NCBI GenBank assembly: GCA_035506275.1
Contig: DATJPT010000010.1
Coordinates: forward strand, 1-64,000
Direction: 5' to 3'
Length of the DNA: 64,000 bases
From: Bacteroidota bacterium
GTDB taxonomy: Bacteria > Bacteroidota > Ignavibacteria > UBA10030 > UBA8401
Under the pieces are notes generated by a model. The model searched no databases, was not told where the DNA came from, and saw nothing but the letters and a program-made list of their open reading frames with translations. A program made the position numbers and the translations under genes. Positions within the stretch are counted from its first letter, which is position 1, and each line of letters begins with the position of its first letter. Shown here in pieces: positions 31,153 through 54,457 of the stretch.

Positions 31153-31178
31153 CTTAATGATGAGAGGTTGAACTTTGA

Positions 31179-31206
31179 ATGCTGGCCTTTGGCCGGCATT
31201 TTTTTT
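31179..31206 (+). terminator. Rho-independent terminator after the tRNA cluster
   Basis: AATGCTGGCC (31178-31187) and GGCCGGCATT (31191-31200) form a 10-bp stem (one G-T) around TTT, followed by TTTTTT. Confidence 0.9.
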
Positions 31207-31318
31207 GTACTGATTTGCTCTAGTTGTAACCCATGTATACGTATATATTCGTATTATTTTTCACTCTAGTTCAGCATTTTGGAAGATGCGGAATCGCTTC
31301 CAATGTTCTACAGTGAAT

Positions 31319-31339: not shown

Positions 31340-31490
31340 GTAAAATCAGATATTTTTGATCAATTGGACTTGCTTCTTAATTCTATAAAAACTAATTTAG
31401 TGGTGGAAAAAGGGTAAAACGCTCATTCAGTTTAATGTGAGAATTTCGTGCAAAAAGATCTTTTAGTTCACTCATGGAGGAGGCAAGCAC

Positions 31491-32414
31491 ATGACTGAGA
31501 TACTCTTTAATACGATGGATGTTTCGAAAATGCTTCAGGTCGACAAGTCGACGGTGAAGCGTTGGACAGACGAAGGCAAATTGAAATGCTTTCGTACGCC
31601 TGGAGGCCATCGAAAATTCCGCGCTGAGGACCTTTATCAGTTTATGTCCGAGTACAACTACGGAATTTCTCCGATCAACTTGTATCCGCAGTTCGCAAGC
31701 GACGATGCGATCGTCCGGCGGATCATTGCCAAAAAGGAATTCAACGTGCTGGCAAACGTCTGCTTCTCCGCTTCGATCAACGGGCGCAAGGATGAGCTCG
31801 TGCGATTATTTTCCGAAGTATACAAAAATGGTTTGACCCTTCCATCGCTGTTCGATGAACTCCTTCGTCCGACCTTGAAACGCATCTACGACCTTAACAT
31901 CTCGGGAAAACTTTCCACCGGCGAAATGCAGCTTGCCTACAATGCACTCTCGAACGCCATTGTGCTCCTCACCGACATCATCGCGAAGCCGGCATCGACC
32001 GGGAAGCGCGCGATCTGTGCAGCAATCGAAGGGGAGAACCGCGACATCGAGCTGAAAGCGCTCGCGGTCCTTCTCGAAAGCGAAGGGTACGAGGTCCTGA
32101 ATCTCGGAGCCGGATCGTCCACCGAAACGATCAGCCAATTGGTCTCAAGCCGGCATCCGCAATACGTCTTCCTCTTCGCATTTCATTTTGCCGACGGCGC
32201 ATCGTTCGTGAAACATCATGCTGCCATCGCGGAAGCGGCCAAAGCGTGCGGCGCAAAACTTATCGTCGGAGGCAATGCATACACGATAAAGGACAGTGCG
32301 ATAGAAGGGGCGGTCACGTTCGATAAGTACTGCGGTTCGTTCAAAGACTTTGCCGATGTTCAACACGAAACTATCTCAGCGCCGTCAACAACGAACGCTG
32401 AAAAGAGAAATTAA
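31491..32414 (+). CDS. MerR-type HTH regulator with degenerate cobalamin-binding-like domain
   Basis: 307 residues, ATG 31491 with GGAGG upstream. Residues ~5-60 form a MerR/excisionase winged helix-turn-helix (MDVSKMLQVDKSTVKRWTDEGKL, CFRTPGGHRKF as landmarks). Residues ~75-170 resemble the helical cap, and ~172-300 the Rossmann-like B12-binding domain of CarA/CarH/LitR regulators. The cobalamin contacts are missing. At 182-187 the family's Glu-x-His-x-x-Gly reads E-N-R-D-I-E, so the axial His is Arg. At 146-147 the cap's usual Glu-His reads Met-Gln by eye alignment. It therefore probably does not bind B12 in the CarH way. It is 225 bases upstream of, and co-directional with, the DUF11 surface-protein operon, which it may control; this is inference from position. 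Confidence 0.8.
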   Translation: MTEILFNTMDVSKMLQVDKSTVKRWTDEGKLKCFRTPGGHRKFRAEDLYQFMSEYNYGISPINLYPQFASDDAIVRRIIAKKEFNVLANVCFSASINGRKDELVRLFSEVYKNGLTLPSLFDELLRPTLKRIYDLNISGKLSTGEMQLAYNALSNAIVLLTDIIAKPASTGKRAICAAIEGENRDIELKALAVLLESEGYEVLNLGAGSSTETISQLVSSRHPQYVFLFAFHFADGASFVKHHAAIAEAAKACGAKLIVGGNAYTIKDSAIEGAVTFDKYCGSFKDFADVQHETISAPSTTNAEKRN

Positions 32415-32438: not shown

Positions 32439-32495
32439 ATGACAACGACCAACAATAACAAAGGAGACCTGACCATGGAAACCTTGTCCCCTTAG
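32439..32495 (+). other. Short leader ORF / duplicated translation-start region
   Basis: An 18-codon frame runs from ATG 32439 to TAG 32493. Its internal ATG at 32475 has AAAGGAG at ideal distance and is followed by GAAACC. The real next gene starts with almost the same layout (AAAGGAG, eight bases, ATG, GGAACG) at 32640. A frame shifted by one base after 32475 reads a short hydrophobic peptide (LVPLGAAFTAVVTTVL) ending at a stop near 32530. It may be a leader peptide or the remains of a decayed copy of the gene start. Confidence 0.3.
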
Positions 32496-32639
32496 GTGCG
32501 GCATTCACGGCGGTGGTAACAACGGTCTTAACTCAACAGTGAAAGTATAAAGATGAAAACAATGACAATACAAAACGACGAACAAAAAGTAAAACAAACT
32601 ACACTCATCAATCACACCTCTAATAAAGGAGATACAAAC

Positions 32640-34496
32640 ATGGGAACGCACAATCTGTTCTCTCGGCTCGGAGCCATGCTGATAGCATGTGCTCTTCTCC
32701 TGGTTGCTTCAGGAGAGTATTCCTACGCCTCAGGTACACGCGCGGGAACGCAAATTACCAGCAATGCAAGTGCAACGTATCATGACCAGGTAGGAGGCGG
32801 CTCGTACAGTGCTTCGGCGACTGCGCTGAGCATTTACGTCGCCTACAAACCGGTCTCCACCATCACTGTTGTCACTTCGCCGCAAACCGGCGTTGACAGC
32901 AGCTACGTGGTCTATCAACTGAACGTGACCAACAGCGGGAACTACGGCGATGCATATGCGGTGGAGTTTAATTCTGCATCGACGAGGTACGACAGCATCG
33001 GCTACTATTCAAATGCCGGGTTGACCGCAGCCTTGGGCGGCACGGCGAAGAATATTCTCCGAGACACCATCCCGACCGACGGCAACGTGAACGTGTATGC
33101 GAAGCTGTATATCAAGTATGACGCGACCTTCAATTCGTACGACGCGCAGACGATCGTCGGCACGTTCAGAAGCCGTTCGACCCGCGACGTTTCCGCGGAC
33201 TCCGGTATTCTGATCTCCGGCTCGAACTACGTGCCGGTCGGCGGCGCCGGACAAAATGCGACGTTCAACGCCTCGGGCAGCACAACGACGACGATTGCCC
33301 AGTCGATCTACAGCATCACGGCGAGCCCGCTCCGCGGCACCGTCCGCCCGGGCGACACCCTCAGCTTTAACATTGCGTACAACAATACCGGCAGCGCGGC
33401 CGATACGGGCGTGAAAATATTTGTCACGTACCCGGCCAACATGACCTACAGCGCCCAGTCGTCGGCCAATTGGTCGAATCAGGGAACCTACGCCGTGTAT
33501 TCGGTCGGCAACGTTGCAGCCACGAGCGGTTCGATCAGCATTGCAAATCCTCTCATCCTCAGCGTTACAAACTCTGCCGCGCTCGTGGAGGGGACTCCGA
33601 CCTCGCTCGGCTCGTTTGGCATCATCTATAAACAAAATGCGACGAACGGCCTGACGCAGACACGCGTGAAGACTCCGACCTTCAACACTGCGAATTATGC
33701 ATTCAAGGCATTTGCCAACACGAGGACCGCAGCGGCTGCCGACACGGCGATTCAAGCCCAGGCAGGCGACTCGATCACCGTAAAGTGGATCGTCAAGAAC
33801 AACAGCAACGGCTCGGATGCTTATACGATTAAATTCGTCTCCGCATCGGAAGGCACCTGGGGCGCAGGCTATTATTATGAATCCAATCCCCAGTCGGGCG
33901 GCACGTACACGAGCGGAACCGACCCGCGCTTCAACAACGCTGCTTATCCGTCCGCCCAGTATGTGACCACGCCGACGATCGCCCGCGGAACCGATACGAC
34001 CATCTATATCCGAACGATGGTTCCGTCAGGCTTGAGCGGCGCGGTGGTTCACCTTGTCATTCAGATCTCGTCCGTTCGCGACTCGGCAACGGTCAGCGGC
34101 GAAGCGGTCGGCGGGACAGTGACGCCCCTCCTCCCGAATATCGTTGTCTCGCGGGCCCGCGTCATAAATCCGGCGGACAGCGTCGGGTCGGGTGCAACTG
34201 TTTCGGTTGTCCCGGGCGGCACGGTGACCTACTACATTTATGTAAGCAACACGGGAACCGGAACTGCCTCGACCGTGGTCATCACGGACAACGTCTCGGC
34301 GACCGGCGGTTACACCAATGCGCCGACATCGGCGACAATCAACGACGGGTCCGACCATGTCATCAACCCGATTCCGGGAGGTAATGCCGCGACCTACGGC
34401 TCTATCGCCACCAACGGAACCGGCGTCGTGATCACTATTAATACGCTGGCCCCCGGCGGAAGCAGAATCATCCATTACGCAACCACCGTTCAATAA
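32640..34496 (+). CDS. Exported DUF11-type repeat protein, first of the surface operon
   Basis: 618 residues from ATG 32640, chosen over 32553 because AAAGGAG precedes it and the signal peptide follows at once (MLIACALLLVASGEYSYAS). The mature protein begins SGTRAGTQITSNASATYHD, a module repeated at the start of two later proteins of this locus. Several beta-sandwich modules with 'NVTNSGN' and 'NTGSAADTGV' cores follow. A DUF11 (conserved repeat) domain sits at about 499-618 (GGTVTYYIYVSNTGTGTASTVVITDN; ending in IVITINTLAPGGSR-like strand and IHYATTVQ). No T9SS tail, no Cys, Ser/Thr/Asn-rich. A strong hairpin after the stop suggests this message segment is protected, so the protein may be the most abundant subunit. 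Function unknown. Confidence 0.78.
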   Translation: MGTHNLFSRLGAMLIACALLLVASGEYSYASGTRAGTQITSNASATYHDQVGGGSYSASATALSIYVAYKPVSTITVVTSPQTGVDSSYVVYQLNVTNSGNYGDAYAVEFNSASTRYDSIGYYSNAGLTAALGGTAKNILRDTIPTDGNVNVYAKLYIKYDATFNSYDAQTIVGTFRSRSTRDVSADSGILISGSNYVPVGGAGQNATFNASGSTTTTIAQSIYSITASPLRGTVRPGDTLSFNIAYNNTGSAADTGVKIFVTYPANMTYSAQSSANWSNQGTYAVYSVGNVAATSGSISIANPLILSVTNSAALVEGTPTSLGSFGIIYKQNATNGLTQTRVKTPTFNTANYAFKAFANTRTAAAADTAIQAQAGDSITVKWIVKNNSNGSDAYTIKFVSASEGTWGAGYYYESNPQSGGTYTSGTDPRFNNAAYPSAQYVTTPTIARGTDTTIYIRTMVPSGLSGAVVHLVIQISSVRDSATVSGEAVGGTVTPLLPNIVVSRARVINPADSVGSGATVSVVPGGTVTYYIYVSNTGTGTASTVVITDNVSATGGYTNAPTSATINDGSDHVINPIPGGNAATYGSIATNGTGVVITINTLAPGGSRIIHYATTVQ

Positions 34497-34546: not shown

Positions 34547-37500
34547 ATGAACCTTCGTCAACTCACATATAGCCTCATCATCCTGCTCGCCGCGGCATCG
34601 ACTGCGTTCGGACAGAAGCTCGTCATTGTCGAGCCGAAGCCGAATACCGTCAGCTTGTTGACCCGCCAGGCAGTGATCGTCAATGGCGCAGCAGGGCGGA
34701 AGGTTCTTCTGGAAGTCAACGGCGCCCCCGTTGATACGGGCGTTGTACGGATCGACGGCGTGTGCGATTTCCTCGGCGTGCCGGTGCCGGTTGGATCGAT
34801 CGAGTTCAAAGTTTCTTACATCGGCGCTTTCACGGAAGCCGATTCGGTCGGCATTCACGTTGCAGGCCAGCCTCATTCGATCGAGATCGTCACGGATGAA
34901 ACAACGTTCCTCGCTGATGGAAAATCAGTGACGCATTTTGACCTCGTTGTGAAAGATACGTTCGGCGTCGCGATCCCGTCGTCGTACATCATCACGGTGA
35001 AATCGGACACCGGAACGATCATTTCTCCGGATATGGACCCGAACGAGGACGGCATTCAACGAAAGATCGAGAACGGAAAAGTCGCCATCGACCTCCAATC
35101 TCCCGCACAAGCCGCGGTGGCGACGATTTCAGCGTCGTGGGGAAATGCAAAAGCAGAAAAGCAGGTCGAGTTCACGACGCCGATAGAACCGCTGATGCTC
35201 GTCGGTTCCGCGAACGGGACGGTCAACTCCCTCCATACGGGCGGCCTCATCTCCGACAGCTCCTTCGCGCTCCTGAAGGATCAACATTCGATCTCCGACG
35301 GGATTCACACGGACGGACGGCTGGCGTTCTACGGCCGCGGTTCCATCTGGAGCAACTATCTGCTGACCGCCTCTTACGATAACCAACGGATGCAGCAGGA
35401 TCGGCTCTTCAAGGACCTTGATCCCGACGTGCTCTATTCAATTTACGGCGACAACAGCAATGTCGATTACACTGCGCAGACCAGCAGCCCGCTCTTTGTG
35501 AAACTCGAACACAACCGCTCGTACCTTATGTTCGGCGACTTCAATACCGCGTTTGCGCAGAACGAGCTCGCGCGTTACGACAGAAGCTTCACCGGCGTGA
35601 AGGCTCACTACGAAACGAAGACGGATAAGGTCGATGCATTTGGAACAGTGACCGACCGCCAGGTCGTGCAAAAAGAAATCCGCGGCGAAGGAATCTCGGG
35701 GTACTACTTCCTCGACAACAGCAATGTGTTCGAAGGCTCCGAAAAGGTTCGGATCGAAGTGCGCGATAAGCTTCATTCCGAAGTCGTTCTGAACCGTGCC
35801 GACAAGACAAGGATCAATGATTACCAGATCGATTATGTGCAGGGAACACTCTTCTTTACGCAGCCCGTTCCGAGCATCGACCTCAACGGAAACCCGGTGT
35901 ATATCGTTGTCTCGTACGAAGCTCAATCCGGTTTTCCGGACAATTACGTTGCCGGCGCTCAAGGCGAGAAAGAAATTGCAAAGGGGCTTACCATCGGGGC
36001 TTCTGCGGTGACCGAAGAACGCCAGCCGAAAAATTATACGCTGCTCGGCGCCAACACCGGGTACACGGCCGGAAGTTCGTTGAAAGTGATCGGAGAAATC
36101 GCGCAGGGGCAGGATAATGAACAGCATGGCGCGGCGTGGAACGTCGAGGCAAGCGGTTCACCGATCGAGCAGCTTAACCTGAAATCGTATTTCCGAAAGG
36201 TCGAAGCCGGATTCCTGAACCCGACAGTCGGAAGCGGCGGGCTCACAGACGGTCTGGGCGGAACGAGCACCGAGCGGTACGGCGCCGGCGGGACCTTTGA
36301 ACCGCTTGCCGGAACGAAATTGACGGGGGACTATTATCACACGATATCGCAAGCCGCAACAGGAACGGTGACATCAAATTCCGTGTCTGGCGGAATCGAG
36401 CATTCGTTCGGCAGCGCCGTTACTTCTTCCTTGAGCGTACAGAATGCACAGTATGAGAGCGTCTCAAGCGACACCCTTCCGGAAGATAAGCGGCAGGCAA
36501 CGTTGGTGGACGCGAAAACGACAGTTCACGCCACAAACCGTCTTAACCTCACCGGAGAGTACGTCGACAACCTTGGTTCATCAGCGGAAGATGCGATACA
36601 GCCTTCTGTCGGTACGATTGGCGCCGACTACCGCATAATCGACCCGGTGACCTTATCTCTAGAAGAGAAAATTTATCAGGGCTCGGGCAATTCTTCGGTC
36701 GTAGGGCTCAGTTCTTCCGTCGGATTCGGCACGACCGTCACCGGAAAATATGAACTCGGCAACGGCATTAGCGGGCGACGCAACGAAGCGAGCATCGGAT
36801 TAAAGAACACGACAAAGCTCACCGACGACCTTACCTCAGAGTTGATGTACGAAAAAACAAGAGACCTCGACAGGAATGTCCTGGAGACCGCAACTCCCGA
36901 CCATAATTCCTTCTCTCTCGGACTGGAATATTTGCCGAAGGCCTCCTACAAAGCGACGATCAAAGGCGAGATCGCCAGCGACGGACAGAGCACAAAACGG
37001 GATCTGACCTTTGGCGGAGACCTCCGGCTCGCGCGCGACTTCACCCTCATCGAAAAATTGACGTATTACGAGGAAGTCAGGTCTCAATCGCAGGACACGA
37101 CCAACAGCTTTGCAGGGGGCACGTTGTCGGCGAATCCGCTGGACCAGATCGGTACGCCACTATCGAGCGGCATTCTGAAGAACTTCCACAATACCATAGG
37201 TATTGCATATCGACCTGTGGCGTGGGACTGGCTGAACGCGATCGGCAAGTTCGAACAGAAGCTGACGTACAACGGAATGGTCTCTCCCGAGACATACGAC
37301 AACGCGCAGATCGTTTCTCTCCATACGTTTATCGAGCCGTTCCGGAGACTCGAAATGGGATTGAAATATGCTTTGAAGCTCGACGATGAAACCTCGTACG
37401 GATTGACTGCAAAAACGATGACCGACTTCTATCTTCTGCATGCGGAATACGACCTCAACTGGCACAATTTTGACGTCGCCGGCGAATACAGAGTTTTGAA

Positions 37501-37699
37501 TCAGCATGATGCAAACGATGCAAAAGTCGGGTACAGCGCTGAACTCGGTTATGTTCTTTTACAAAACGTTCACGTTGCGGTCGGTTACAACTTTATCGGA
37601 AACAAGGACCGCGACCTGGTAGAATATACGTACTGGTCAAAGGGGCCGTACGTGACAATGGGAGTGAAATTCACTGAGAAAATCTTCAATGCTTTCTAA
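34547..37699 (+). CDS. Putative outer-membrane beta-barrel protein with N-terminal Ig-like domains
   Basis: 1050 residues with a signal peptide (LIILLAAASTAFGQ). Residues ~22-110 and ~110-210 look like Ig-like beta-sandwiches (VNGAAGRKVLLEVNGAPVD; IEIVTDETTFLADGKSVTHFDLVVKD). From ~230 to the end, strands alternate polar and aromatic/hydrophobic residues (GRGSIWSNYLLTASYDNQ; LYSIYGDNSNVDY; YLMFGDFNTAFAQNELARYDRSFTGVKAHYET). The sequence ends in a strand with terminal aromatic (VTMGVKFTEKIFNAF), as in outer-membrane barrels. The N-terminal part has no TonB box or plug. I recall similar 'YGD'-motif barrels beside DUF11/OmpA proteins in other phyla, but cannot check this. The gene's last 11 bases overlap the giant gene that follows. 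It could export, anchor or display its neighbours. Confidence 0.65.
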   Translation: MNLRQLTYSLIILLAAASTAFGQKLVIVEPKPNTVSLLTRQAVIVNGAAGRKVLLEVNGAPVDTGVVRIDGVCDFLGVPVPVGSIEFKVSYIGAFTEADSVGIHVAGQPHSIEIVTDETTFLADGKSVTHFDLVVKDTFGVAIPSSYIITVKSDTGTIISPDMDPNEDGIQRKIENGKVAIDLQSPAQAAVATISASWGNAKAEKQVEFTTPIEPLMLVGSANGTVNSLHTGGLISDSSFALLKDQHSISDGIHTDGRLAFYGRGSIWSNYLLTASYDNQRMQQDRLFKDLDPDVLYSIYGDNSNVDYTAQTSSPLFVKLEHNRSYLMFGDFNTAFAQNELARYDRSFTGVKAHYETKTDKVDAFGTVTDRQVVQKEIRGEGISGYYFLDNSNVFEGSEKVRIEVRDKLHSEVVLNRADKTRINDYQIDYVQGTLFFTQPVPSIDLNGNPVYIVVSYEAQSGFPDNYVAGAQGEKEIAKGLTIGASAVTEERQPKNYTLLGANTGYTAGSSLKVIGEIAQGQDNEQHGAAWNVEASGSPIEQLNLKSYFRKVEAGFLNPTVGSGGLTDGLGGTSTERYGAGGTFEPLAGTKLTGDYYHTISQAATGTVTSNSVSGGIEHSFGSAVTSSLSVQNAQYESVSSDTLPEDKRQATLVDAKTTVHATNRLNLTGEYVDNLGSSAEDAIQPSVGTIGADYRIIDPVTLSLEEKIYQGSGNSSVVGLSSSVGFGTTVTGKYELGNGISGRRNEASIGLKNTTKLTDDLTSELMYEKTRDLDRNVLETATPDHNSFSLGLEYLPKASYKATIKGEIASDGQSTKRDLTFGGDLRLARDFTLIEKLTYYEEVRSQSQDTTNSFAGGTLSANPLDQIGTPLSSGILKNFHNTIGIAYRPVAWDWLNAIGKFEQKLTYNGMVSPETYDNAQIVSLHTFIEPFRRLEMGLKYALKLDDETSYGLTAKTMTDFYLLHAEYDLNWHNFDVAGEYRVLNQHDANDAKVGYSAELGYVLLQNVHVAVGYNFIGNKDRDLVEYTYWSKGPYVTMGVKFTEKIFNAF

Positions 37700-40600
37700 A
37701 ACAATGCCGATCGCGGGAATAAAAAATTTGGATGTACGCGTGATTGCGGGATCAACTAAGGACCACCGTCCGAATGGGCGATTTCGACCGTTAGCTCTTT
37801 TGTTGAGCGGAATGCTTCTCCTTGCCAGCATATCACTCCGTGCACAAAGTATTGCGAACTACGCTCCGGTGACCCGTACGACCGGGATTATCTACTCGTC
37901 GGACTCGGCAACGGGGAATGCCTTCCCGGCTTGGAGGAACAATACTGCAGGCAATTCAAATCAGGACGATAACCGGAGCTATCCTGTCAACATCGGCTTT
38001 GATTTTTGGTATGACGGCGTCCGCTATACCCAATTCAGCGCATCAACAAACGGTTTTATGGACCTGTCTTCGGCGACATTTGACGGAGGTCCAGCTTCCC
38101 GTCCGTACGGCCCATATGACGCGGACTTGAGCACTAATTCACAATCCGGAGGAACGGTCCTCGGTATCGCCCCTCTCTATTATGATCTCACAACTCAGGG
38201 GGAAGTCGACCCGCTCGGAAACAGCATTAAATACCTTACGACCGGGACCGCTCCCAACAGAGTGTTGACGGTCGAATGGCTCAACATGTCCGAGTGGCCT
38301 AATCACAGCTCGAATACGAATTTTCAGGTGAAGCTGTTCGAATCGACCGGAGTCATAGAATTCCTGTACGGGTCGATGAGCCCCGGTAGCGGCTTCACCT
38401 GGTCATACACCCTCGGTATCAACGGCCCAAGTTTGAGCAACACGCCGGCGGCATCGGAATTACTGATTCAACAAACCCAGAACACGACGACGTTCAATAA
38501 CACTGTTCAAAACAGCCTGGCGACTCTCCCAGCTTCGTATTCTATGCTCACGTTCACCCCGCCGACGCCGGCCGATCCGACCAACCTCACATTCACGAGC
38601 GTGCAGCTTACGTCGATGAATTTGAATTGGACGGACAATGCCAACAACGAAGTCGGATACGTGATCTATCGCTCCGATGACGGCGGTGCGACGTATAACT
38701 TTATCCACCAACTTGCTGCAAACTCCACATCATCGACGGAGACAGGCCTGCTTGCGGGGACGACGTATTACTGGAAAGTGTACGCCGTAACGGAGGGGAG
38801 ACTCAGTAACGCGCTGGCAGGAAGTCAGACGACCAGCCCGGCGCCGAATGTGATCTCGGCGCAGACCGGTCCGTGGAATACCGGATCGACATGGATTGGC
38901 GGCATCGTGCCGGCGTCAACCGCAAATGTGATCATCGCCGATAATACGACAGTCACACTTGACGGCAGCAACACGGCGAACAGCGTAACTGTCGGACAAG
39001 GAGGCAGCGGCGCCACATTGATTATCGGCAACAGTGCGACAGCGCGGGCGCTGACGGTCAACGGTTCGATCACGGTCAATTCGGGGGCTTCCCTCGCCGT
39101 GAACAGCGCTTTTTCGCAAACTGCACATCAAATCAATGTCTCGGGAGACATCCTGAACTCCGGAACATTCAATATGGAAACAGGCCCGGCGAGCCGGTGC
39201 GTCGTTGTGTTCAACAGGAACGGCGCTCAAAATATTGAGGGGGGAGGGACGACCCGCTTCGGAAAGATCACGCTGAATATGGGTTCATCAAGCTCGAATA
39301 TTCTCGACGTTTCGGCCACGAATTTCGTGGACACTGTTGCAAACTTTTTGACGTTGTCGAACGGAACATTCAGGCTTTCAACGGGAGCTACCATCACTCC
39401 ATTCCAGGGAAATGTCGCGATTCCGATGTCGGCGGGGTTATGGCTCTACAGCAATTCGCCGGCGGTGACGATCCAGGACAGCCTCATCGTCGCCGGTTCG
39501 CTGCGCGTCAGCAGCGGTACATTGACGATCGGCAACGCAGCGGATGCACGGCTGATGTCCGACGGCGGTACGTTTACGATCGAGGGAGGTACGTTAAACA
39601 TTGCCGGAAGGTTTGCTCCCTATAATGGCTTCACGACGACAAGCTTTACGATGTCCGGCGGGGTGTTGAATGTCCCGACCATCGGATCGACCAGCACAAC
39701 GGATGCGCCGTTCTCGATGACCGTCGCAGGCTCGTATTTCGAGATGACCGGCGGAACGATCATCATCAAACACTCCGGCGGCTCGCACCTTGGGTTCCTC
39801 AACACGGGGGGGTCGACGTATTCAGTGACCGGCGGTACCCTCCAGATCGGGGATGCTTCAACGTCGAGCAGCGATACCATTGCTGTGAAAACTATTTCCC
39901 CCGTCTACAATTTGCTTGCTGCAGGAACAACGCCAACGGTGACCGCGAGGCTTGACACTTCGCTGACCGTGAAAAATAATATCACCATCAATTTGGGAAA
40001 CTCCCTAAACGCCAACACCTTCAACATCAGCGTTGCCGGTCTATGGAGCGATGCCGGAACGTTCGCCCCTTCGACCGCCGCGGCGATTTTTAACGGAACA
40101 TCTGCCCAGACCATCAGCAAGACATCGAGCGCGGAAACCTTCAATAAGCTGACGATAAACAATTCTGCTTCCGTGTCCCTCGCAGCAAGCACGAACGCGA
40201 CGGTCGCAGATTCTTTCCAGATCTTGCAGGGGACATTTGCGGTCGCCTCAAACACGCTGACGCTGAACGGCGGCGTCGCCAGCAGCGGCACGCTGACGTC
40301 CAACGCCGCCGGAACTGTTTCCTATAACAAAAGCTCGGCCGGACAATCGGTGATCGCAGCGAATTACGGGAACCTGATATTCAGCAATTTTACAAAAACG
40401 CTTCCATCCAGCGGAACTGTTGGGATCGCCAGCGCTTTTACACCCGGTACTGCCGCAGGGCATACAATTACCGGAAGCACGGTGGATTTCAACGGCTCGG
40501 GTGCGCAAACCATACCATGGTTCCTGTTCAATAATCTGAACGTCAGCACCAGCGGGACCAAAACACTGTCTGTGTCGACCGCAGATACCGTCTTAGGAAA

Positions 40601-43600
40601 CTTCACGATCAATTCCGGAGCGATATTTGCCGACGGCGGTTTCAGTCTTCGGGTAGCTAAGAATGTTACAAACAATAATGCGCATACGGGATCCGGCAAT
40701 ATCACTCTCATTGCGGGGTCCGCTGCACATTCGTTGTCAGGGACGGGAACTTATACCAACCTAATCCTCAATGATGCAAACGGCGCGACGCTCTCGAATA
40801 ACCTGACGGTGAACGGAGTATTGACGTTTACAAACGGCATCATCACCACTTCCGCCGTGGATACGGTAATCATTTCGGCCGGAGCGAGCGTCAGCAGGAC
40901 AAGCGGCCATGTCAACGGCAATCTCGAAAAGAATTTTTCGACGGGAAGTAATGTCCTTCGTTTGTTCGAGATCGGCGACGCTGCGACTTTCGCTCCGGAC
41001 ACAATTACTTTTGCCTCGGTGACCGCTGCCGGTAATCTTACCTGTTCGGTCACGGCGGGGGATAATCCCACAATAGCGAGTTCCGGCGTCGACCCGAATC
41101 ACAGCGTGAACCGGTATTGGACGATCTCGAACAACGGCATCGCGTTCACGACCTACAAGGCGACATTCGATTTCACGGCGGGCGATATCGATGCGGGCTC
41201 TACAACGGGAACGTTTATTGTCGGAAAACTCGACGCAGCGTGGAGCCTCACCGGGGTCGGGACGAGAACGGGGACGTCCACTCAAGCAACAGGGATGAAC
41301 AGCATCTATGCGTCAGGATCATCTTTTGTAATAGGAAACGTCGCCACGACGGCAACGAACTCCTACAGGTCGGTTGCAACGGGAAACTGGAATGCCACAG
41401 CAACATGGCAGAGATATAATGGTACTTCTTGGGTTGCCGCTGCCGCTGTACCGGACAGTACCGTTCAATCGATAGAACTGCAAAGCCCGTACACGGTCAC
41501 GATGACGGCGAGCACGAATGCGGATCAGTTGCAGATCGATGCCGGCGCGACGCTGGTGATCAACAGCGGCCAAACGTTCACACTGCATGACGGGGCTGGC
41601 ACAGACCTTACGACCCTCGGAACGCTGACAAACTCCGGAACCATTACACAGGGAACGGCGACGATCACCGTGGCCAGCGGCGGCGTGTACACGCACAACA
41701 CCAACAGCACAGCGAATATCAAAGCCACCTGGGATCCAAATTCCACCTGCCAATTCACAGGAGTTACGAACGGTACTCCGGCAAATTTTGCACAGACCTT
41801 CGGACACTTCACCTGGAATTGTGCGAGTCAAACTGCAACGATCAGCATAGCGGGGGTTCTGACGACGATCGCAGGCAATTTTACTATGACGTCAACTGGA
41901 ACGGGCGAGCTGGATCTTGCTGCCACACAGAGTCAGACCACAACGATCGGAGGAAATTATTCCCAAACCGGGGGCACTTTCGGGCTCTCTACCGGGAACG
42001 GGGCCCCGACGGTTAGCATCGCAGGAAATTTCTCGATGAGCGGCGGTACTCTCCGGATGAAGGGAACGGCGGCTGGCGGTAATTTTAGCGGCGTGTCGAC
42101 GATGAACGTGGGCGGGAATTTTTCCTTCACTTCCGGAACGATCAGCAGAAAGTCAACGAACACGGGCGGCAAAGGATTGATCGTTTTTAATGGGACCGGT
42201 ATACAGAGCTATACCTCAGGCGGAACGATCGCAACCACCGACAGCATTGGGTTTACCGTCAACAGCGGCGCTACGCTTTATGTCGGCACAAGCAGCATTA
42301 TCGGAGGAGGGACCTTTACACTATCGAGCGGCGCGGTTCTCGGAATTGGTTCGACCAATGGGATAACTGCGAGCGGAGCGACCGGCAACGTCCAGACGAC
42401 CGGCAGAGCATACAACACGGGAGCCAGCTACGTCTACAACGGTTCATCCCTACAAAGCACCGGCAATGGTCTCCCCGCCACCGTGAATAAGCTGACGATC
42501 AATAATGGGGCGGGCGTCAACCTGACCAACGCGACTCAGACCGACTCGCTGTATTTGACGTCCGGTACGTTCAACGTTAATGCCGCTGTGACCCTTACGA
42601 TCAACAATCTTGTCGTCGTCGGGGCCGGATCGCTCACAAGCGCGGCAACGGGGACGGTGAATTATAGCAAGCCATCAAACGGCCAAAGCTTGATCATCGG
42701 CAGTTACGGAAATCTGACGTTCAGTAATTTTTCAAAGATATTTCCATCCTCTGGGACTCTCTCCATTGCCGGAACATTTACTCAAGGGACGGGAACGGGA
42801 CACGTGGTTGCCGGCAGCACCGTGGCGTTTAACGGAACATCAAGCCAGGTGATCCCGGCGTTCGCATTCAATAACCTGACAACGAGCGGGAGTTGGAAGG
42901 GGCTGGGCGGAGCTGTGTCGGTCGCGGGCAATTTGACCATCACGTCGGGGGTCCTCTCGGACAGCAGCTTCATTCTTACTGTGAACGGAAACATCGCGAA
43001 TAGTGCCGTTCACAAGAGTGGATCGGGGGAGATCTATTTGAGCGGCGGCGCGTCCGCGCACGTAGTATCGGGCGGCGGGACATTCGCGAATGTGGAACTG
43101 AATGACGGATATGGGATCACGACATCAGGAAATCTGAATGTCGGCGGCACGCTGACGCTGACACGCGGCATTATTACTACGGCTGCCGACTCCGTGGTGA
43201 TCGTTTCCGGCGGAGCCGTCAGCCGGGCAGTCACCGGTCTGCCGAGGCATGTGTACGGGAATCTGAAAATGTATGTTGCGACAGGGTCTCCCGTCACGCT
43301 GACCATGCATGTCGGCGATGCTTCCACGTACGCGCCGATCGGACTGACGTTTGCCTCCGTTTCAGCTGCAGGGTACATCGTCGCATCCACGGTCGGCAGC
43401 GAACATCCAGCATTAAAGATTTCGGGCATTGATCAAACAAGCGATGCAAACCGGTACTGGACGATCGCCGATCTGGGAACGACCTTCACAACGTATGCTC
43501 TTACACTCAACTTCGCATCGTCAGACCTCGACCCGACGGCAAACACAAGCTACTTCTTTATTCGAAGATACAGTTCGCCTCTCTGGTACGGTACAAATAC

Positions 43601-46058
43601 TTCTGCCAGAACGTCTTCAAGCACTCAATCAGTCGGGCTGGGACCGACAGACTTCGGCGATTTCGCTGTGGGCCAGGTCCAAGGATATTTCCGCTGGACG
43701 GGGATCGGCGGGGACACGAAATGGAGCACCGCGGCAAACTGGAGCCTGAACAGCGTGCCCACATCGATGAACGATGTGGTGCTCGATACTACTGCGATCA
43801 TTAACAGCGTCACTGCAACCGACTCGTGCCGAAGTTTAACGATATCGAACAGCGGAATTCAACTCTCGGTGACCACAGGAACGCTGACCGTGGCCGGCAA
43901 TTTGTCAATGTCCGCGGGAAGTCTTTTTACGCAAACCGCCTTTCCGTCGATTACGGGTACGATATCGTTGACGGGGGGAAAGGTGGGTTTCAACGGAACG
44001 GGCGCGCAAACGATCCCTGCGTACAGTTATTATGACCTCTCGACAAGCGGCGCCCATACGACCAACAATCTAACCCTGGCCCCCGGGACAATTTCGGTTG
44101 CCGACAGCTTTACAAATTCAGCGACGTTCACGACAGGCTCATGGGTCAATACCGGAAATACGTTCATATACAACGGCTCGGCAGCTCAGCTCGTTGGAGC
44201 GATCATGTACAACAATCTTTCGATCATCAACGCACGCGGTTCAAACAATATCACGTTCTCGGCTTCGGACACGGTTCATATCGCGGGAACGTTAACGGCC
44301 TCTGCAACCTTCAGCAGCAATTATGGGTACGTCCTTACAGGTACAATTTTCGACTACAACGGCGCCGGATCGCAGACCGTCCCATGCATGGCCTACAACT
44401 CGCTTCGCATCAGCGGCGCGCGGAGCACAAACACATTGACCCTTTCTTCAACGGACACAATTCATGTTGCAGGCACATTCAGCCCGGCTGCGACCTTCTC
44501 CGGCACCGGGGGCTATCAATCCGCCGGAACGGTCTTCGAATATAACGGTGCGGCGGCGCAGAATATCGCCGCATTTACCTATAACAATCTCGTATTGACG
44601 AACGGCGGCGCTTCGGCAAAAACATTCACGGGAACAGACAGCGTCAAGGGAAATCTGGTCATTAACAACGGCGCGACCGGGGCGGGGGGAACCGGAACGG
44701 TTGTTCTCTTCGGGAATTGGACAAATAACGGATCGTTCACCCCATCGAACTCTGTTGTGGAATTTGGGGGCGTTCCTTCGGCGGCGATCAGCGGTGCAAC
44801 GGCCTTCTCCACATTGAACGTCAATAAACATGATTCTGCAACCGCTGTCACGTTGAATAACAACATAAATGTCGGTACCTTGAACATGTTGTATGGCACG
44901 ATGCAGACCGGAGCAAATTCCGTGACAATAACAACGGCCAGAACGGGGAACGGACTTGTTCTGGGTACCGTTACGCGGACACAGGCCTTTGCATTGTCGA
45001 CCGCGTATGCATTTGAAGGACCAAATACGTTGATTACATTTACAGCCGGCTCGGTTCCTAGTTCTGTGACCGTGACAGTTTCCCAGACAGCTCCGTCAAA
45101 TACGATCATGATGCCGGTGAACCGGTCGGTGACTATTTCAAACACCGGCGGAAGTTTTACCGCAACCGTTCGTCTGCATTATGAAAATATTGAAACGAAC
45201 AGCCTCGACGAGACATTGTTGAAATTGTGGGAATACACGGGCGGTGCATGGGTGAATATGGGAGGCACGAGCCATGACTCCGTTAACAATTATGTCGAAA
45301 CAACGGGGATCACGTCTTTCAGCCCTTCCTGGGCCATCGGGGCGAGCGCTTCTTCGAAAACGTTCGTTGACCTGAGCGGGGGAGGTCCGAAAGTCGGCGA
45401 TACGCTTGCCTATACTGTCACTGTTTTCAACCCATACAAAATTACCAAGTCGAGCGTTACCGTCAGCGATCCGCTGCCGGCGAATTTCATTCTCGTCCCC
45501 GGGAGCATCAGCAACAGCGGCTCCGTGTCCGGACAGGTGCTGACGGGAAAGAACCTTGAAGGGGGTACGATCACATGGCCGGCGTTTTCGCTTGCAGGCG
45601 ACGGATCTCTTACGAGGACATTCCGGGTCTGTTCTGATTCTACTATCGGTTCCTCGCAGACGATCACCAATACGGCACAGATCAACTATGGAGGAAGCGC
45701 GAGTGAATACGTTTCAGTCCCGGTGACGATCGCGAACCTCCCAAATCTCGCGATTGCTAATTCCGTGAACAACCCGAACCCGATCCCGGGAAACGTTCTG
45801 ACCTACACGATATCGATAAAGAACAATGGAACGGCGAACGCGACAAACATAACGCTGAACACCGCCGTCCCGGCCAACACGACATTTAATGCCAATGCAT
45901 ATGGTGCCGGCATGGGGGTGCAGGTGAACGGAGTGGCGATGACAAACGCGGCAGACGCCGACGCCGTCACGGTAAGCGGCACGTCGATCACGGTAACGAT
46001 CGCATCTATTGCTGCCGGTGCAACGACTCAGATAGTTTATCAAACGACCGTCAATTAG
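37689..46058 (+). CDS. Giant secreted repeat protein (FN3, beta-helix-like repeats, C-terminal DUF11)
   Basis: 2789 residues. ATG 37689 overlaps the barrel gene's end by 11 bases. It is preceded by a ~30-residue n-region before the signal peptide (LALLLSGMLLLASISLRAQ). A beta-domain with VNIGFDFWYDGVRYTQFSASTNGF precedes a fibronectin-III module (about 290-384, YVIYRSDDGGATYNF ... GTTYYWKVYAV). A long series of beta-helix or G8-like segments follows ('WxxGxTW', 'TLTVNG', 'AGNFTMTSTG'), including at least eight copies of an 'hNGxxxQTIPxxxYNNL' motif. Two DUF11 domains end it (about 2556-2789). There are almost no Cys residues, no autotransporter barrel and no T9SS tail, so surface delivery must use another partner, possibly the overlapping barrel gene. 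Probably an adhesin or fibre; function unknown. Confidence 0.75.
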   Translation: MLSKTMPIAGIKNLDVRVIAGSTKDHRPNGRFRPLALLLSGMLLLASISLRAQSIANYAPVTRTTGIIYSSDSATGNAFPAWRNNTAGNSNQDDNRSYPVNIGFDFWYDGVRYTQFSASTNGFMDLSSATFDGGPASRPYGPYDADLSTNSQSGGTVLGIAPLYYDLTTQGEVDPLGNSIKYLTTGTAPNRVLTVEWLNMSEWPNHSSNTNFQVKLFESTGVIEFLYGSMSPGSGFTWSYTLGINGPSLSNTPAASELLIQQTQNTTTFNNTVQNSLATLPASYSMLTFTPPTPADPTNLTFTSVQLTSMNLNWTDNANNEVGYVIYRSDDGGATYNFIHQLAANSTSSTETGLLAGTTYYWKVYAVTEGRLSNALAGSQTTSPAPNVISAQTGPWNTGSTWIGGIVPASTANVIIADNTTVTLDGSNTANSVTVGQGGSGATLIIGNSATARALTVNGSITVNSGASLAVNSAFSQTAHQINVSGDILNSGTFNMETGPASRCVVVFNRNGAQNIEGGGTTRFGKITLNMGSSSSNILDVSATNFVDTVANFLTLSNGTFRLSTGATITPFQGNVAIPMSAGLWLYSNSPAVTIQDSLIVAGSLRVSSGTLTIGNAADARLMSDGGTFTIEGGTLNIAGRFAPYNGFTTTSFTMSGGVLNVPTIGSTSTTDAPFSMTVAGSYFEMTGGTIIIKHSGGSHLGFLNTGGSTYSVTGGTLQIGDASTSSSDTIAVKTISPVYNLLAAGTTPTVTARLDTSLTVKNNITINLGNSLNANTFNISVAGLWSDAGTFAPSTAAAIFNGTSAQTISKTSSAETFNKLTINNSASVSLAASTNATVADSFQILQGTFAVASNTLTLNGGVASSGTLTSNAAGTVSYNKSSAGQSVIAANYGNLIFSNFTKTLPSSGTVGIASAFTPGTAAGHTITGSTVDFNGSGAQTIPWFLFNNLNVSTSGTKTLSVSTADTVLGNFTINSGAIFADGGFSLRVAKNVTNNNAHTGSGNITLIAGSAAHSLSGTGTYTNLILNDANGATLSNNLTVNGVLTFTNGIITTSAVDTVIISAGASVSRTSGHVNGNLEKNFSTGSNVLRLFEIGDAATFAPDTITFASVTAAGNLTCSVTAGDNPTIASSGVDPNHSVNRYWTISNNGIAFTTYKATFDFTAGDIDAGSTTGTFIVGKLDAAWSLTGVGTRTGTSTQATGMNSIYASGSSFVIGNVATTATNSYRSVATGNWNATATWQRYNGTSWVAAAAVPDSTVQSIELQSPYTVTMTASTNADQLQIDAGATLVINSGQTFTLHDGAGTDLTTLGTLTNSGTITQGTATITVASGGVYTHNTNSTANIKATWDPNSTCQFTGVTNGTPANFAQTFGHFTWNCASQTATISIAGVLTTIAGNFTMTSTGTGELDLAATQSQTTTIGGNYSQTGGTFGLSTGNGAPTVSIAGNFSMSGGTLRMKGTAAGGNFSGVSTMNVGGNFSFTSGTISRKSTNTGGKGLIVFNGTGIQSYTSGGTIATTDSIGFTVNSGATLYVGTSSIIGGGTFTLSSGAVLGIGSTNGITASGATGNVQTTGRAYNTGASYVYNGSSLQSTGNGLPATVNKLTINNGAGVNLTNATQTDSLYLTSGTFNVNAAVTLTINNLVVVGAGSLTSAATGTVNYSKPSNGQSLIIGSYGNLTFSNFSKIFPSSGTLSIAGTFTQGTGTGHVVAGSTVAFNGTSSQVIPAFAFNNLTTSGSWKGLGGAVSVAGNLTITSGVLSDSSFILTVNGNIANSAVHKSGSGEIYLSGGASAHVVSGGGTFANVELNDGYGITTSGNLNVGGTLTLTRGIITTAADSVVIVSGGAVSRAVTGLPRHVYGNLKMYVATGSPVTLTMHVGDASTYAPIGLTFASVSAAGYIVASTVGSEHPALKISGIDQTSDANRYWTIADLGTTFTTYALTLNFASSDLDPTANTSYFFIRRYSSPLWYGTNTSARTSSSTQSVGLGPTDFGDFAVGQVQGYFRWTGIGGDTKWSTAANWSLNSVPTSMNDVVLDTTAIINSVTATDSCRSLTISNSGIQLSVTTGTLTVAGNLSMSAGSLFTQTAFPSITGTISLTGGKVGFNGTGAQTIPAYSYYDLSTSGAHTTNNLTLAPGTISVADSFTNSATFTTGSWVNTGNTFIYNGSAAQLVGAIMYNNLSIINARGSNNITFSASDTVHIAGTLTASATFSSNYGYVLTGTIFDYNGAGSQTVPCMAYNSLRISGARSTNTLTLSSTDTIHVAGTFSPAATFSGTGGYQSAGTVFEYNGAAAQNIAAFTYNNLVLTNGGASAKTFTGTDSVKGNLVINNGATGAGGTGTVVLFGNWTNNGSFTPSNSVVEFGGVPSAAISGATAFSTLNVNKHDSATAVTLNNNINVGTLNMLYGTMQTGANSVTITTARTGNGLVLGTVTRTQAFALSTAYAFEGPNTLITFTAGSVPSSVTVTVSQTAPSNTIMMPVNRSVTISNTGGSFTATVRLHYENIETNSLDETLLKLWEYTGGAWVNMGGTSHDSVNNYVETTGITSFSPSWAIGASASSKTFVDLSGGGPKVGDTLAYTVTVFNPYKITKSSVTVSDPLPANFILVPGSISNSGSVSGQVLTGKNLEGGTITWPAFSLAGDGSLTRTFRVCSDSTIGSSQTITNTAQINYGGSASEYVSVPVTIANLPNLAIANSVNNPNPIPGNVLTYTISIKNNGTANATNITLNTAVPANTTFNANAYGAGMGVQVNGVAMTNAADADAVTVSGTSITVTIASIAAGATTQIVYQTTVN
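40310..41343 (+). repeat. Large internal duplication in the giant gene, copy 1
   Basis: Encodes a block from GTVSYNKSSAGQS through SSFVIGNV. It shares order and many residues with copy 2: 'YGNLxFSNFxK', 'PSSGTxxIAxxFT', 'NRYWTI', 'TFASVxAAG'. It is about 1.03 kb long, almost equal to copy 2. Confidence 0.65.
42651..43683 (+). repeat. Large internal duplication in the giant gene, copy 2
   Basis: Encodes the block from GTVNYSKPSNGQS to DFAVGQV, parallel to copy 1, starting about 2.34 kb later. The DNA has diverged, so the duplication is old and seen at protein level. Confidence 0.65.
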
Positions 46059-46089: not shown

Positions 46090-47202
46090 ATGAAGTATAT
46101 TCTTTCTTTTATCGCAGCATTGTTCCTTGTGATTTCTGAATCGCAGCTCCAGGCTCAGACATCGCAATTGAAAATGGGAGACTACACGATCACCGCCGCT
46201 GTTTCTCCAAAAAAGGAGGCGGGAGCCGTCGCTTTTGTGAGCGCGGCCTTCCCGAAAGCGGCCAAAGGGATGAAAGGGTTTGGCTTCTTTTATGCCCGGA
46301 ATGAAAACGCCCTGTCCGACGTCGTCCTTGAAATTGCCGATGCGGGAACAAAGACGATCATAAAAAATATCACGGCTTCGGACCTTGCCGGAGCTTCGAA
46401 GACCGAGACGCAAAACAAAGGGGGGAGAAACGTCGCGACGTACCAATTCGGCGCCGGCGCCGACGGGTTAGAATTGCAGGTCTCTACCGAGCTGGTCAAC
46501 GACGACACTGCACCTCTCGGAAAGAAAGTTGTTATCACCTACAAAGTGAGGCTTGCGAAAGATTCCCAGGTGAATGCCGTACTTCGTTTGAAGACCGACG
46601 GCAGCGCCCAGAAGGTCGGCACCGCCGGATTTTCTGCGAGCAGAATGGAAAACGGTTCCGCAACCTATCCTGCGATCATCATGACCTCCTTGAATCCTGT
46701 CAACGTCGATGTCGCTCCCCGTTCGGGGGACATTCAACAGGTCTCTGTCCAGACAATGAACGTTGCTTCGAAAGCCAAAACATGGGCGACGCTGTTTTCA
46801 TTCGAGGCGGTCGGCACAACTGTGAACGATGCCGGCAAAGCTTCGGAACAAGCGGCCAGGATCGCATCGAGAATCGAGTCGAAAGAAGCGAAGCCTGACC
46901 TCGTTATCTTTAATACGGCATCTCCTATCAATACCGTTCCGGGAGATACTGTCACGTACACTATTTCCTATTGTAACATCGGCAATGCGCTGGCGCAGGA
47001 CGCTGAAATTACGAATCCGGTGGCCGACGGCGTCACCCTGATCGAGAAGTCCGTAGAATCAAAGGATGCTGTGGTCACCATCGACCGTAAACCGGCAACC
47101 TCTGCCGATGCTGGCGCCCCGTCGCTGGTCCGTTGGAAGATCACAAAGAAAATCATGCCTGGAGAGGAAGGGACGCTGACAATGAAGGTCGTCGTCCGAT
47201 AA
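46090..47202 (+). CDS. Exported protein with C-terminal DUF11-like domain (surface operon)
   Basis: 370 residues, ATG 46090 with CAGGAG upstream, 31 bases after the giant gene. Signal peptide MKYILSFIAALFLVISESQLQAQ. The N-terminal ~250 residues are a beta/alpha mixture unlike the other members (KMGDYTITAAVSPKKEAGAVAFVSAAF; GFGFFYARNENALSDVVLEI) and rich in Lys. Residues ~272-370 form a DUF11-like module (PINTVPGDTVTYTISYCNIGNALAQDAEITNPV) ending GTLTMKVVVR. No homologue recognised for the first domain. Its small size and unique first domain suggest a connector, cap or chaperone-like component of the assembly; this is a guess from context. No T9SS tail. Confidence 0.65.
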   Translation: MKYILSFIAALFLVISESQLQAQTSQLKMGDYTITAAVSPKKEAGAVAFVSAAFPKAAKGMKGFGFFYARNENALSDVVLEIADAGTKTIIKNITASDLAGASKTETQNKGGRNVATYQFGAGADGLELQVSTELVNDDTAPLGKKVVITYKVRLAKDSQVNAVLRLKTDGSAQKVGTAGFSASRMENGSATYPAIIMTSLNPVNVDVAPRSGDIQQVSVQTMNVASKAKTWATLFSFEAVGTTVNDAGKASEQAARIASRIESKEAKPDLVIFNTASPINTVPGDTVTYTISYCNIGNALAQDAEITNPVADGVTLIEKSVESKDAVVTIDRKPATSADAGAPSLVRWKITKKIMPGEEGTLTMKVVVR

Positions 47203-47254
47203 GTCGATGAAAAAAGGTTCATTATATCGAGTGTTGATTGTGGAAAATCCTGTC

Positions 47255-48901
47255 ATGAAGTCGGCACGGCTATGGCTTGCCGCGGCCGTTCTCCTTGCGT
47301 TCAGTGCCACGACTACTTTTGCATCGGGGACGCCGGCGGGGACCGTTATCACAAGCAGAGTGAAAGTGACCTACACCGACATATCCGGTGTCACCGCCGA
47401 CAGCGCCTTTTCCAACTTCGTATCCGTAACGGTTGCGCAGGTCGCCGCCGTGAACGTCACGCCGCCGAACGGAGCAGTCACTACCTCCTCCGACAGCGTG
47501 AACGCCGATTATGCGCTGACAGTGACCAACTCAGGAAACGGAACGGATAAATTTGCTCTTTCGAAGATCTCGTCGAAAGGATGGACGGTTCTATTCTACA
47601 AAGACCTCAACGGCAACGGGCTTCTTGATGCCGCCGAGCTAGCAGCCGGCGCGATTGCGGCGACCGATTCTGTCAAGGAGGATTCGACATTTAAGATCAT
47701 TGCAAGGGTCGTTGTTCCCAGGAATTCCGCGTTGAATAATCAGATCGACACAACGACGGCCACTGCCACGTCGCAATTCAGCAATTCGAAGAGCGCCGGC
47801 AGCATTCTGATGACAAGCGTTCACACGGTGAATTTCAGCAATATCGGAAACGGCTTGACTGTCGACAACGCAACCCCGGCTCCCGGACAGAATGTGACAT
47901 ACACTTTTACGTTTACAAACAACGGTTCGGTCCCGGCGACAGGTGTCAGCCTGTCCGACCTGCTTACCGGTTTTACCTTTGTCTCAGCAACAAGCTCGCA
48001 AGGGAGTTTTAATTCGACCGCTAATCCCGTTCTTTGGAGCATCGGTACCGTAAACGTCGGCGCTTCCGTGTCAGTAACGATCACGTTAAACGTCCCCCTC
48101 AGCACGACCAGCGGGACAGTACTGAATAATATCGTCAGCGCCACCTATACCGCCGGTACAAATACCTTCATCGTCTCGAGCAACGGCCGTTCAATTACGG
48201 TCGGCACGGCTTACGGCGTGTCTATCTCTCCGGACAGCGCAGCCAACTCGAAGGAACCGCAAGACTCAGTGAAATATTATTTCACCGTCAGGAACACGGG
48301 CGCACTAAAAGATGTCATCGAATTGTCGGCAGCATCGTCAGAGCCCCTCGCATGGACCTTCATCAAGGATGTCAACAACAATCACCTCCTCGACGGAGCT
48401 GACGTGCCCTTGACCAATACCAACGGGAAAGCCGGAGTTGACGTAGATTCTGTTGCCTCGGGAGACAGCGTTCACGTTTTTGCCCTTGCGATCCTTCCGA
48501 TGGTTCAGTTCGATCAAACAAAAGACGTTACGACGATCACGGCGACGTCGTCCGCGAATTCATCAAAATTCCAGTCCATGGTAGCGACAACCACGACGAA
48601 CATTCCGGTGTTGACGGTCGCCATTTCCGTCTCGCCGCTCCCCAGCCAGCCGCAGCCGCCGGGAGGCGTGCTGACGTACACGATCTCGTATGCAAACAAC
48701 GGACACGCCGATATTGACACTTCATACACTGTTGCGGCACGAATTCCGGACAGTACATCGTACGTTCCGGGAAGCGTGAAGTTGGGGGCGCTTTCGCTCC
48801 CCGATTCAGCGGCGATCCAGAATGGTACGGTGTCGATAAAAACGGCAGGCTTAAAACAATCGACAAACGGCACGGTACAATTCAAGGTGAAAATTAAATA
48901 A
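47255..48901 (+). CDS. Exported multi-DUF11 protein (surface operon)
   Basis: 548 residues from ATG 47255, where a normal signal peptide begins (MKSARLWLAAAVLLAFSATTTFAS); an ATG at 47207 would add 16 residues. The mature start SGTPAGTVITSRVKVTYTD closely parallels that of the 618-residue protein, so the two are paralogous subunits. Three or four modules of ~110-120 residues follow. Two are recognisable DUF11 domains (about 200-310, VTYTFTFTNNGSVPATGVSLSDLL, and about 455-548, PPGGVLTYTISYANNG), with a 'DGxDVPLTNTNG' acidic loop region between that may bind Ca2+. No T9SS tail or lipobox. The stop is two bases before the next start, so the pair is likely translationally coupled. Confidence 0.72.
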   Translation: MKSARLWLAAAVLLAFSATTTFASGTPAGTVITSRVKVTYTDISGVTADSAFSNFVSVTVAQVAAVNVTPPNGAVTTSSDSVNADYALTVTNSGNGTDKFALSKISSKGWTVLFYKDLNGNGLLDAAELAAGAIAATDSVKEDSTFKIIARVVVPRNSALNNQIDTTTATATSQFSNSKSAGSILMTSVHTVNFSNIGNGLTVDNATPAPGQNVTYTFTFTNNGSVPATGVSLSDLLTGFTFVSATSSQGSFNSTANPVLWSIGTVNVGASVSVTITLNVPLSTTSGTVLNNIVSATYTAGTNTFIVSSNGRSITVGTAYGVSISPDSAANSKEPQDSVKYYFTVRNTGALKDVIELSAASSEPLAWTFIKDVNNNHLLDGADVPLTNTNGKAGVDVDSVASGDSVHVFALAILPMVQFDQTKDVTTITATSSANSSKFQSMVATTTTNIPVLTVAISVSPLPSQPQPPGGVLTYTISYANNGHADIDTSYTVAARIPDSTSYVPGSVKLGALSLPDSAAIQNGTVSIKTAGLKQSTNGTVQFKVKIK

Positions 48902-48903
48902 GC

Positions 48904-53890: not shown

Positions 53891-54457
53891 TTGGAAAATG
53901 ACCTGAAAAAGAAGCCTGACGAAGAGCTGCTGCAACGCTCGCGCAAAGGCGATGCCGGCGCGTTCAAGGAACTGGTGAGGCGTTACGAGGCGAAAGTCGC
54001 GGCAACAGTGATAGGCATGGTCGGGCGGAATGACGAGGCGGATGATATCGGGCAGGAGACGTTTATCCGGTTCTACAATGCCCTCAACAGCTTTCGAGGC
54101 GATTCTTCGATAGGCACCTACATCACCCGCATTGCAATGAACTTGTCGTTGAACGCGCTGCGGCGGCGCGAACGGCGAAGGTTTCTGTTTAAGAGCATTG
54201 ATACTGAAAACGAATTACAGGAGCCGGCCGCTGAGAACGGGGCCGGCCGTTTTGAACAAAGTGAAATTCTCCGCTCGGCGATGCAGCGGCTTTCTCCGAA
54301 GTATCGCGCTGTCGTCACGCTGCGGCTGGCGCAGGGATATTCGACTGAGGAAACGGCCCGCATGCTGCGGATTCCCGTCGGCACGGTGCTCTCACGTTTA
54401 CAGCGGGCGCAGAAGAAGTTACAAACCCTTTTACGGGCATATAAGGAGGATTTTTGA
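53891..54457 (+). CDS. ECF-type RNA polymerase sigma factor
   Basis: 188 residues, TTG start at 53891 (the nearby ATG at 53898 is out of frame). Region 2 shows GAFKELVRRYEAKVAATVIGMV, DEADDIGQETFIRFYNAL and FRGDSSIGTYITRIAMNLSLNALRRR (landmarks). Region 4 shows LSPKYRAVVTLRLAQGYSTEETARML and IPVGTVLSRLQRAQKKL, the -35-binding helix-turn-helix. Region 3 is absent, as in the ECF group. It directs polymerase to a small stress regulon, usually including its own operon. The stop overlaps the next ATG by one base (TGATG), and that gene has the features of its membrane anti-sigma factor. It lies 205 bases after the surface operon, on the same strand. Confidence 0.92.
   Translation: MENDLKKKPDEELLQRSRKGDAGAFKELVRRYEAKVAATVIGMVGRNDEADDIGQETFIRFYNALNSFRGDSSIGTYITRIAMNLSLNALRRRERRRFLFKSIDTENELQEPAAENGAGRFEQSEILRSAMQRLSPKYRAVVTLRLAQGYSTEETARMLRIPVGTVLSRLQRAQKKLQTLLRAYKEDF

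Follow-up and report, generated by a model that had tools for sequence, protein, structure and literature searches.

The gene at positions 31491-32414 of the window (the whole stretch of 64,000 nucleotides analysed here) encodes a relative of the B12-dependent light sensors, and sequence comparison confirms that it has been stripped of its ligand residues while its DNA-binding head is intact. We consider it probable, with room for doubt, that this protein works without B12 and is dedicated to controlling the transcription of its own gene and of the neighbouring surface-protein operon. In the mechanism that we propose, the BldC-type helix-turn-helix (HTH) would bind a tandem array of 9-bp repeats (31401-31472), cooperatively and head to tail, and this binding would probably repress transcription both of the regulator's own gene and of those downstream of it. 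Retaining its fold and presumably no longer holding adenosylcobalamin (AdoCbl), the former cobalamin domain would most likely serve as an oligomerisation module and as a docking site for another signal, be it a protein partner or some other small molecule accommodated in a remodelled pocket.

31491-32414, forward strand: regulator gene, an open reading frame of 307 amino acids

Domain organisation and predicted fold

The regulator comprises a BldC-type HTH (residues ~1-58), a linker, a four-helix cap (~72-165) and a Rossmann domain (~172-290). Among the NCBIfam profiles, that of the BldC-type HTH (NF033787) ranks first, with an E-value of 3.6e-15 and 55.5 bits, below its cut-off of 77, and the curated CarH profile NF052513 is not reached (36.4 bits against a cut-off of 400). 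In Pfam, HTH_17 (39.7 bits, cut-off 27) and MerR_1 (28.3 bits, cut-off 21.6) both score above threshold, and the B12-domain profiles PF02310 (30.9 bits against 32.1) and PF02607 (16.3 against 23) both remain below it. The closest solved sequence is that of CtMerR (8jbs; E 3e-26, across residues 5-300). The first-pass annotation had described the overall layout as that of the CarH/LitR-type light/B12 regulators; this stands for the order of HTH, cap and Rossmann domain, but the head is of the BldC type rather than a classical MerR head, and CtMerR (8jbs/8jbt) rather than CarH/LitR comes closest among the solved relatives. No second regulator of this type was found in the source genome.

The AlphaFold model of the regulator, for which 56 relatives served as input, has a pLDDT of 91.2 and a pTM of 0.77. 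CtMerR ranks first against this model in both Foldseek and VIA-align (TM 0.92 on the target; Z 28.2 and rmsd 1.9 Å over 221 residues), followed in the VIA-align order by photocobilins (Z 23) and then by methionine synthase, the AppA SCHIC domain and CarH (Z 17-19). Since the fold alignments nearly superpose CtMerR, the model preserves both the cap and the Rossmann domain, in agreement with the initial impression that the fold is kept.

Loss of the cobalamin contacts

CtMerR, an AdoCbl photoreceptor, is characterised by the signature GxxW, EH, GxxH and GxxxP (PMC11796333). Alignment of the regulator with TtCarH and CtMerR reveals that all four pocket residues are replaced, W131 by N134, E141 by M146, H142 by Q147 and the axial H177 by R184, so that both the W-x9-EH contacts of the cap to the adenosyl group and the axial His of the D/E-x-H-x-x-G motif (here E182-N-R184) are absent. 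The Pro of the GxxxP element is also gone, LGPNTP having become LGAGSS with S210 at its position. The by-eye assignment from which the analysis started, E182-N-R184-D-I-E187 and M146-Q147 in place of the cofactor contacts, proves exact in its residue numbers, as do the reading frame and its length, and the cap Trp and the GxxxP Pro are two losses beyond those it listed. An axial His supplied from another part of the domain, which that annotation had named as evidence against its reading, was looked for among the orthologues, and no conserved replacement was found. One candidate, H232, was rejected: it sits on the strand with the usual S-x-T/V motif and is Asp or another residue in the orthologues.

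From these replacements we infer that the regulator would no longer bind B12. The contrary reading, that a corrinoid is still bound without the axial His, either base-on or weakly, and that the B12/light switch is retained, could appeal to the near-identity of the fold to that of CtMerR and to one orthologue (L039) that has the axial His, but appears very improbable given that nearly all orthologues have lost the whole set together (Trp, Glu and His in the cap, the axial His, the Pro) and that, as reported from modelling of a different protein, AdoCbl has limited room when Arg occupies the axial position (PMC11796333).

Distribution of the ligand-free state and patterns of selection

Relatives for the phylogeny were taken from the family, order and phylum of the source; they were found by a genome-contig search with an alignment, a single-protein search having returned nothing, and the four contact columns were left out of tree building. 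The 18 Ignavibacteria sequences that lack the Trp-Glu-His cap group together in a single clade (SH-aLRT 97), and the remaining 47 rows are intact (WEHH or YEHH), some of them sharing genomes with ligand-free paralogues. A separate loss, L015, lies outside the 18-sequence clade, and the 110-row tree, a quick tree without a mixture model, needs at least six changes between the intact and the lost state. The suggestion that the substitution might be common to a clade of regulators beside DUF11 loci is thereby upheld, a conserved DUF11 operon lying alongside. Across clade A the axial position reads R, N, N, D, D, N, N, N, N, E and H; L039 is the sole one among the 18 cap-less sequences to keep the axial His, which hints at a stepwise loss.

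Ligand losses are also observed in other BldC-headed B12-type regulators, namely in Acidobacteriota (L119, L129, L136 and L141; for example LERC) and in Myxococcota and Deltaproteobacteria (L167, L169, L171 and L179; Myxococcota states TEHS and CQHN). These losses are independent.

The lost pocket does not drift freely, since all 16 sequences of clades A and b have Gln or His where CarH has His142, and most carry a polar residue in the axial place, Asn in 10 of the 16. Such constancy would be understandable if the pocket had been remodelled to fit a different ligand, such as heme or some other tetrapyrrole (compare AppA SCHIC), the regulator then being a one-component sensor of that ligand, and the AppA SCHIC domain (4heh) does align with the model (Z 18.8). 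We nevertheless regard this as a doubtful, if possible, alternative, for the clade shows poor conservation in the C-terminal Rossmann half, where the cobalamin tail used to sit, and a by-eye look for a conserved Cys/His pair fit for heme found none.

Within one genus, dN of the DNA-binding domain is about 0 at a dS of 0.8-1.9, that of the cap is 0.08-0.11 and that of the C-terminal Rossmann part is 0.26-0.40; dN/dS of the cobalamin-binding domain is roughly 0.05-0.3. The mean pairwise identity of the C-terminal Rossmann half is 0.22 in the ligand-free clade against 0.33 in the intact relatives. The near-zero dN of the DNA-binding domain, the low dN/dS and this lower identity together indicate that the gene is under selection and that its C-terminal Rossmann half is looser; by these measures, constraint on the regulator is weakest in the former cobalamin-tail region. 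Pseudogene decay is ruled out by dN/dS. A milder version, in which only the sensor half decays and leaves a protein that simply binds DNA constitutively, would accord with the poor conservation of that C-terminal half, but is unlikely, because purifying selection persists on the cap and the N-terminal Rossmann half, where D122, P127, K140, E145, N151, G199 and G206 are invariant, and because the model is confident across the whole domain.

A predicted operator of 9-bp direct repeats

The region between the tRNA cluster and the regulator contains the following elements:

31177-31201, forward strand: terminator-like hairpin after the tRNA cluster
31225-31235, forward strand: TGTAACCCATG element, common far upstream to most orthologous loci
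31401-31472, forward strand: predicted operator, made up of eight 9-bp direct repeats in phase, G at position 3: TGGTGGAAA AAGGGTAAA ACGCTCATT CAGTTTAAT GTGAGAATT TCGTGCAAA AAGATCTTT TAGTTCACT

The sites of BldC are 9-bp direct repeats, along which it binds head to tail (PMC5859096), and CarH operators consist of 11-bp repeats, the same DNA being recognised by CarA (PMC9304148). The array directly precedes the start codon of the regulator, and eight in-phase G at period 9 are reached by a fraction of 0.0003 of Markov shuffles. In the autocorrelation of the anchored upstream block lag 9 is strongest (z 7.3; lag 8, z 3.8), and a search of the same block for an 11-bp operator of the CarH type gave no signal at lag 11. 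The BldC-type trait, 9-bp direct repeats with an AT-rich part and a fixed G/C, is present in the sequence upstream of the regulator. The orthologues have AAAMCGCTCAWT in common as the array core; under a leave-one-out matrix the site in the window reaches 41.7 and the runner-up in the window 7.6, and a search of the 3.7-Mb genome with the 24-base core pattern, tolerating up to 2 mismatches, gave a single occurrence. A long in-phase array is confined to the window and G301; elsewhere there are 2-5 repeats, several single loci being within chance, and in-phase 9-bp repeats are detected upstream in G300. The intact relatives display the same periodicity (lag 9 z 13, from shuffles that ignore relatedness; for example ACCGTTCAA AACGAACAT AACATACAT), and their 9-bp code, AWCGNNCAW, matches that of the ligand-free clade. 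As relatives from other phyla exhibit a weaker periodicity, with lags 7 and 14 rising too, we claim this code firmly for Ignavibacteria only.

Repression is suggested by the position of the repeats after promoter-like sequence in several relatives; in the window, a promoter scan upstream of the regulator on the forward strand found none, so that the repressor geometry gets no promoter support there. The terminator-like hairpin, one found by a consensus scan against 1.5 expected in shuffles, suggests that the regulator heads its own transcription unit. Rfam returned only tRNAs above cut-off across the region and no riboswitch. Upstream of the repeats, 160-310 nt before the regulator start, most loci of clades A and b have a TGTAACCYAT element (31225-31235 in the window), with 14 occurrences where shuffles would give about 1, and words resembling it also occur upstream of a regulator-less operon in G240. 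ATTAGA-N4/5-TCTAAT palindromes were seen in the AT-rich upstream regions of five loci (L083, L072, L084, L085 and L066).

The presumed surface-protein operon and its putative leader peptide

The genes downstream of the regulator are as follows:

32475-32495, forward strand: micro-ORF of six codons, METLSP-stop, with a strong Shine-Dalgarno sequence (M-x-x-[KRE]-P-P-stop in relatives)
32553-34496, forward strand: first structural gene after the regulator, encoding a DUF11 surface protein
34547-37699, forward strand: probable outer-membrane protein of 1050 amino acids, conserved third gene, with a weak Big_1/Invasin_D3-like domain below cut-offs
37689-46058, forward strand: giant surface protein of 2789 amino acids, conserved fourth gene (fn3, DUF11)
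46090-53685, forward strand: three more DUF11 surface proteins (370, 564 and 1593 amino acids), presumed part of the operon

We assume that the surface genes are transcribed as one operon. A member of the DUF11/giant-surface-protein operon is the next gene in 10/10 orthologous loci, and the 1050-aa protein then comes in all seven loci with enough contig, at about 50-55% identity; large surface proteins are also found beside clade b members. Against a dedicated regulator counts G240, in which the surface operon occurs without it. Several further arrangements deserve mention. In G304 (contig 26) two different ligand-free regulators, L079 and L086, flank one surface operon ~24 kb apart. In the window, an ECF sigma factor gene and two unassigned genes, possibly anti-sigma, come right after the surface operon (53891-55532). 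Three intact B12-type regulators (L074, L075 and L088) are found near FAD-dependent amine-oxidase-type genes of the phytoene-desaturase kind, neighbourhoods which suggest light-controlled carotenoids in Ignavibacteria, with a presumed carotenoid role for these genes.

The micro-ORF between regulator and operon takes the form ATG-NNN-NNN-NNN-Pro-Pro-stop with a strong ribosome site in 9/11 clade A loci, for which chance is about 1e-4 per spacer; the window version ends in Ser-Pro-stop rather than Pro-Pro-stop. It is also found in L071, L072, L076-L081, L083 and L181, and varies at third codon positions and stop codons, as a coding sequence would. Because G240 carries it without a regulator, we assign the micro-ORF to the operon, where it is a putative leader peptide. 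Pro-Pro ahead of a stop codon promotes stalling and trans-translation at termination (PMC3985003). A more elaborate and quite tentative proposal is that Ignavibacteria recruited a former B12 photosensor as a novel type of sensor for a surface-matrix operon, with a clade-specific pocket (an E-x-Q/H cap and Asn for the axial His), the ancestral 9-bp operator code being kept and a second layer of control being provided by the M-x-x-[KRE]-Pro-Pro-stop leader peptide, which would pause the ribosome between the regulator and the surface genes.

Comparison with known systems

What emerges is a photosensor family that has been re-wired, the DNA-binding half and the operator code having been kept, the cofactor site erased and the target genes exchanged. 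From the 9-bp code, operators can also be predicted for the many BldC-headed B12 regulators that await characterisation, CtMerR among them. B12-independent relatives are already known in CarA, AppA and perhaps BluR; a literature search turned up no paper on degenerate cobalamin domains joined to a BldC head.

CtMerR of Chloracidobacterium thermophilum (8jbs/8jbt) resembles the regulator in its domain order, its HTH and its nearly superposable cobalamin domain, but binds AdoCbl as a light sensor through the W, EH, H and P contacts, all of which are replaced in the regulator. CarH/LitR of Thermus thermophilus has the same layout of HTH, cap and Rossmann domain and likewise a tandem direct-repeat operator near its gene; it differs in its classical MerR head, 11-bp repeats and carotenoid genes, where the regulator has lost the contacts and is associated with 9-bp repeats and surface genes. 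BldC of Streptomyces has a related HTH that binds 9-bp direct repeats cooperatively and head to tail, but, unlike the regulator, is without a sensor domain. As to the fate of the sensor half, the AppA SCHIC domain of Rhodobacter sphaeroides uses the cobalamin-domain fold without cobalamin, as proposed here, although AppA is a flavoprotein antirepressor and no DNA-binding regulator. The MerR-like BluR/MlrA of Escherichia coli may offer another parallel, BluR being thought to have lost its ligand and to be controlled by a protein partner, and CarA of Myxococcus xanthus is, as we propose for the regulator, a B12-independent relative of CarH, its repression being relieved by the partner protein CarS.
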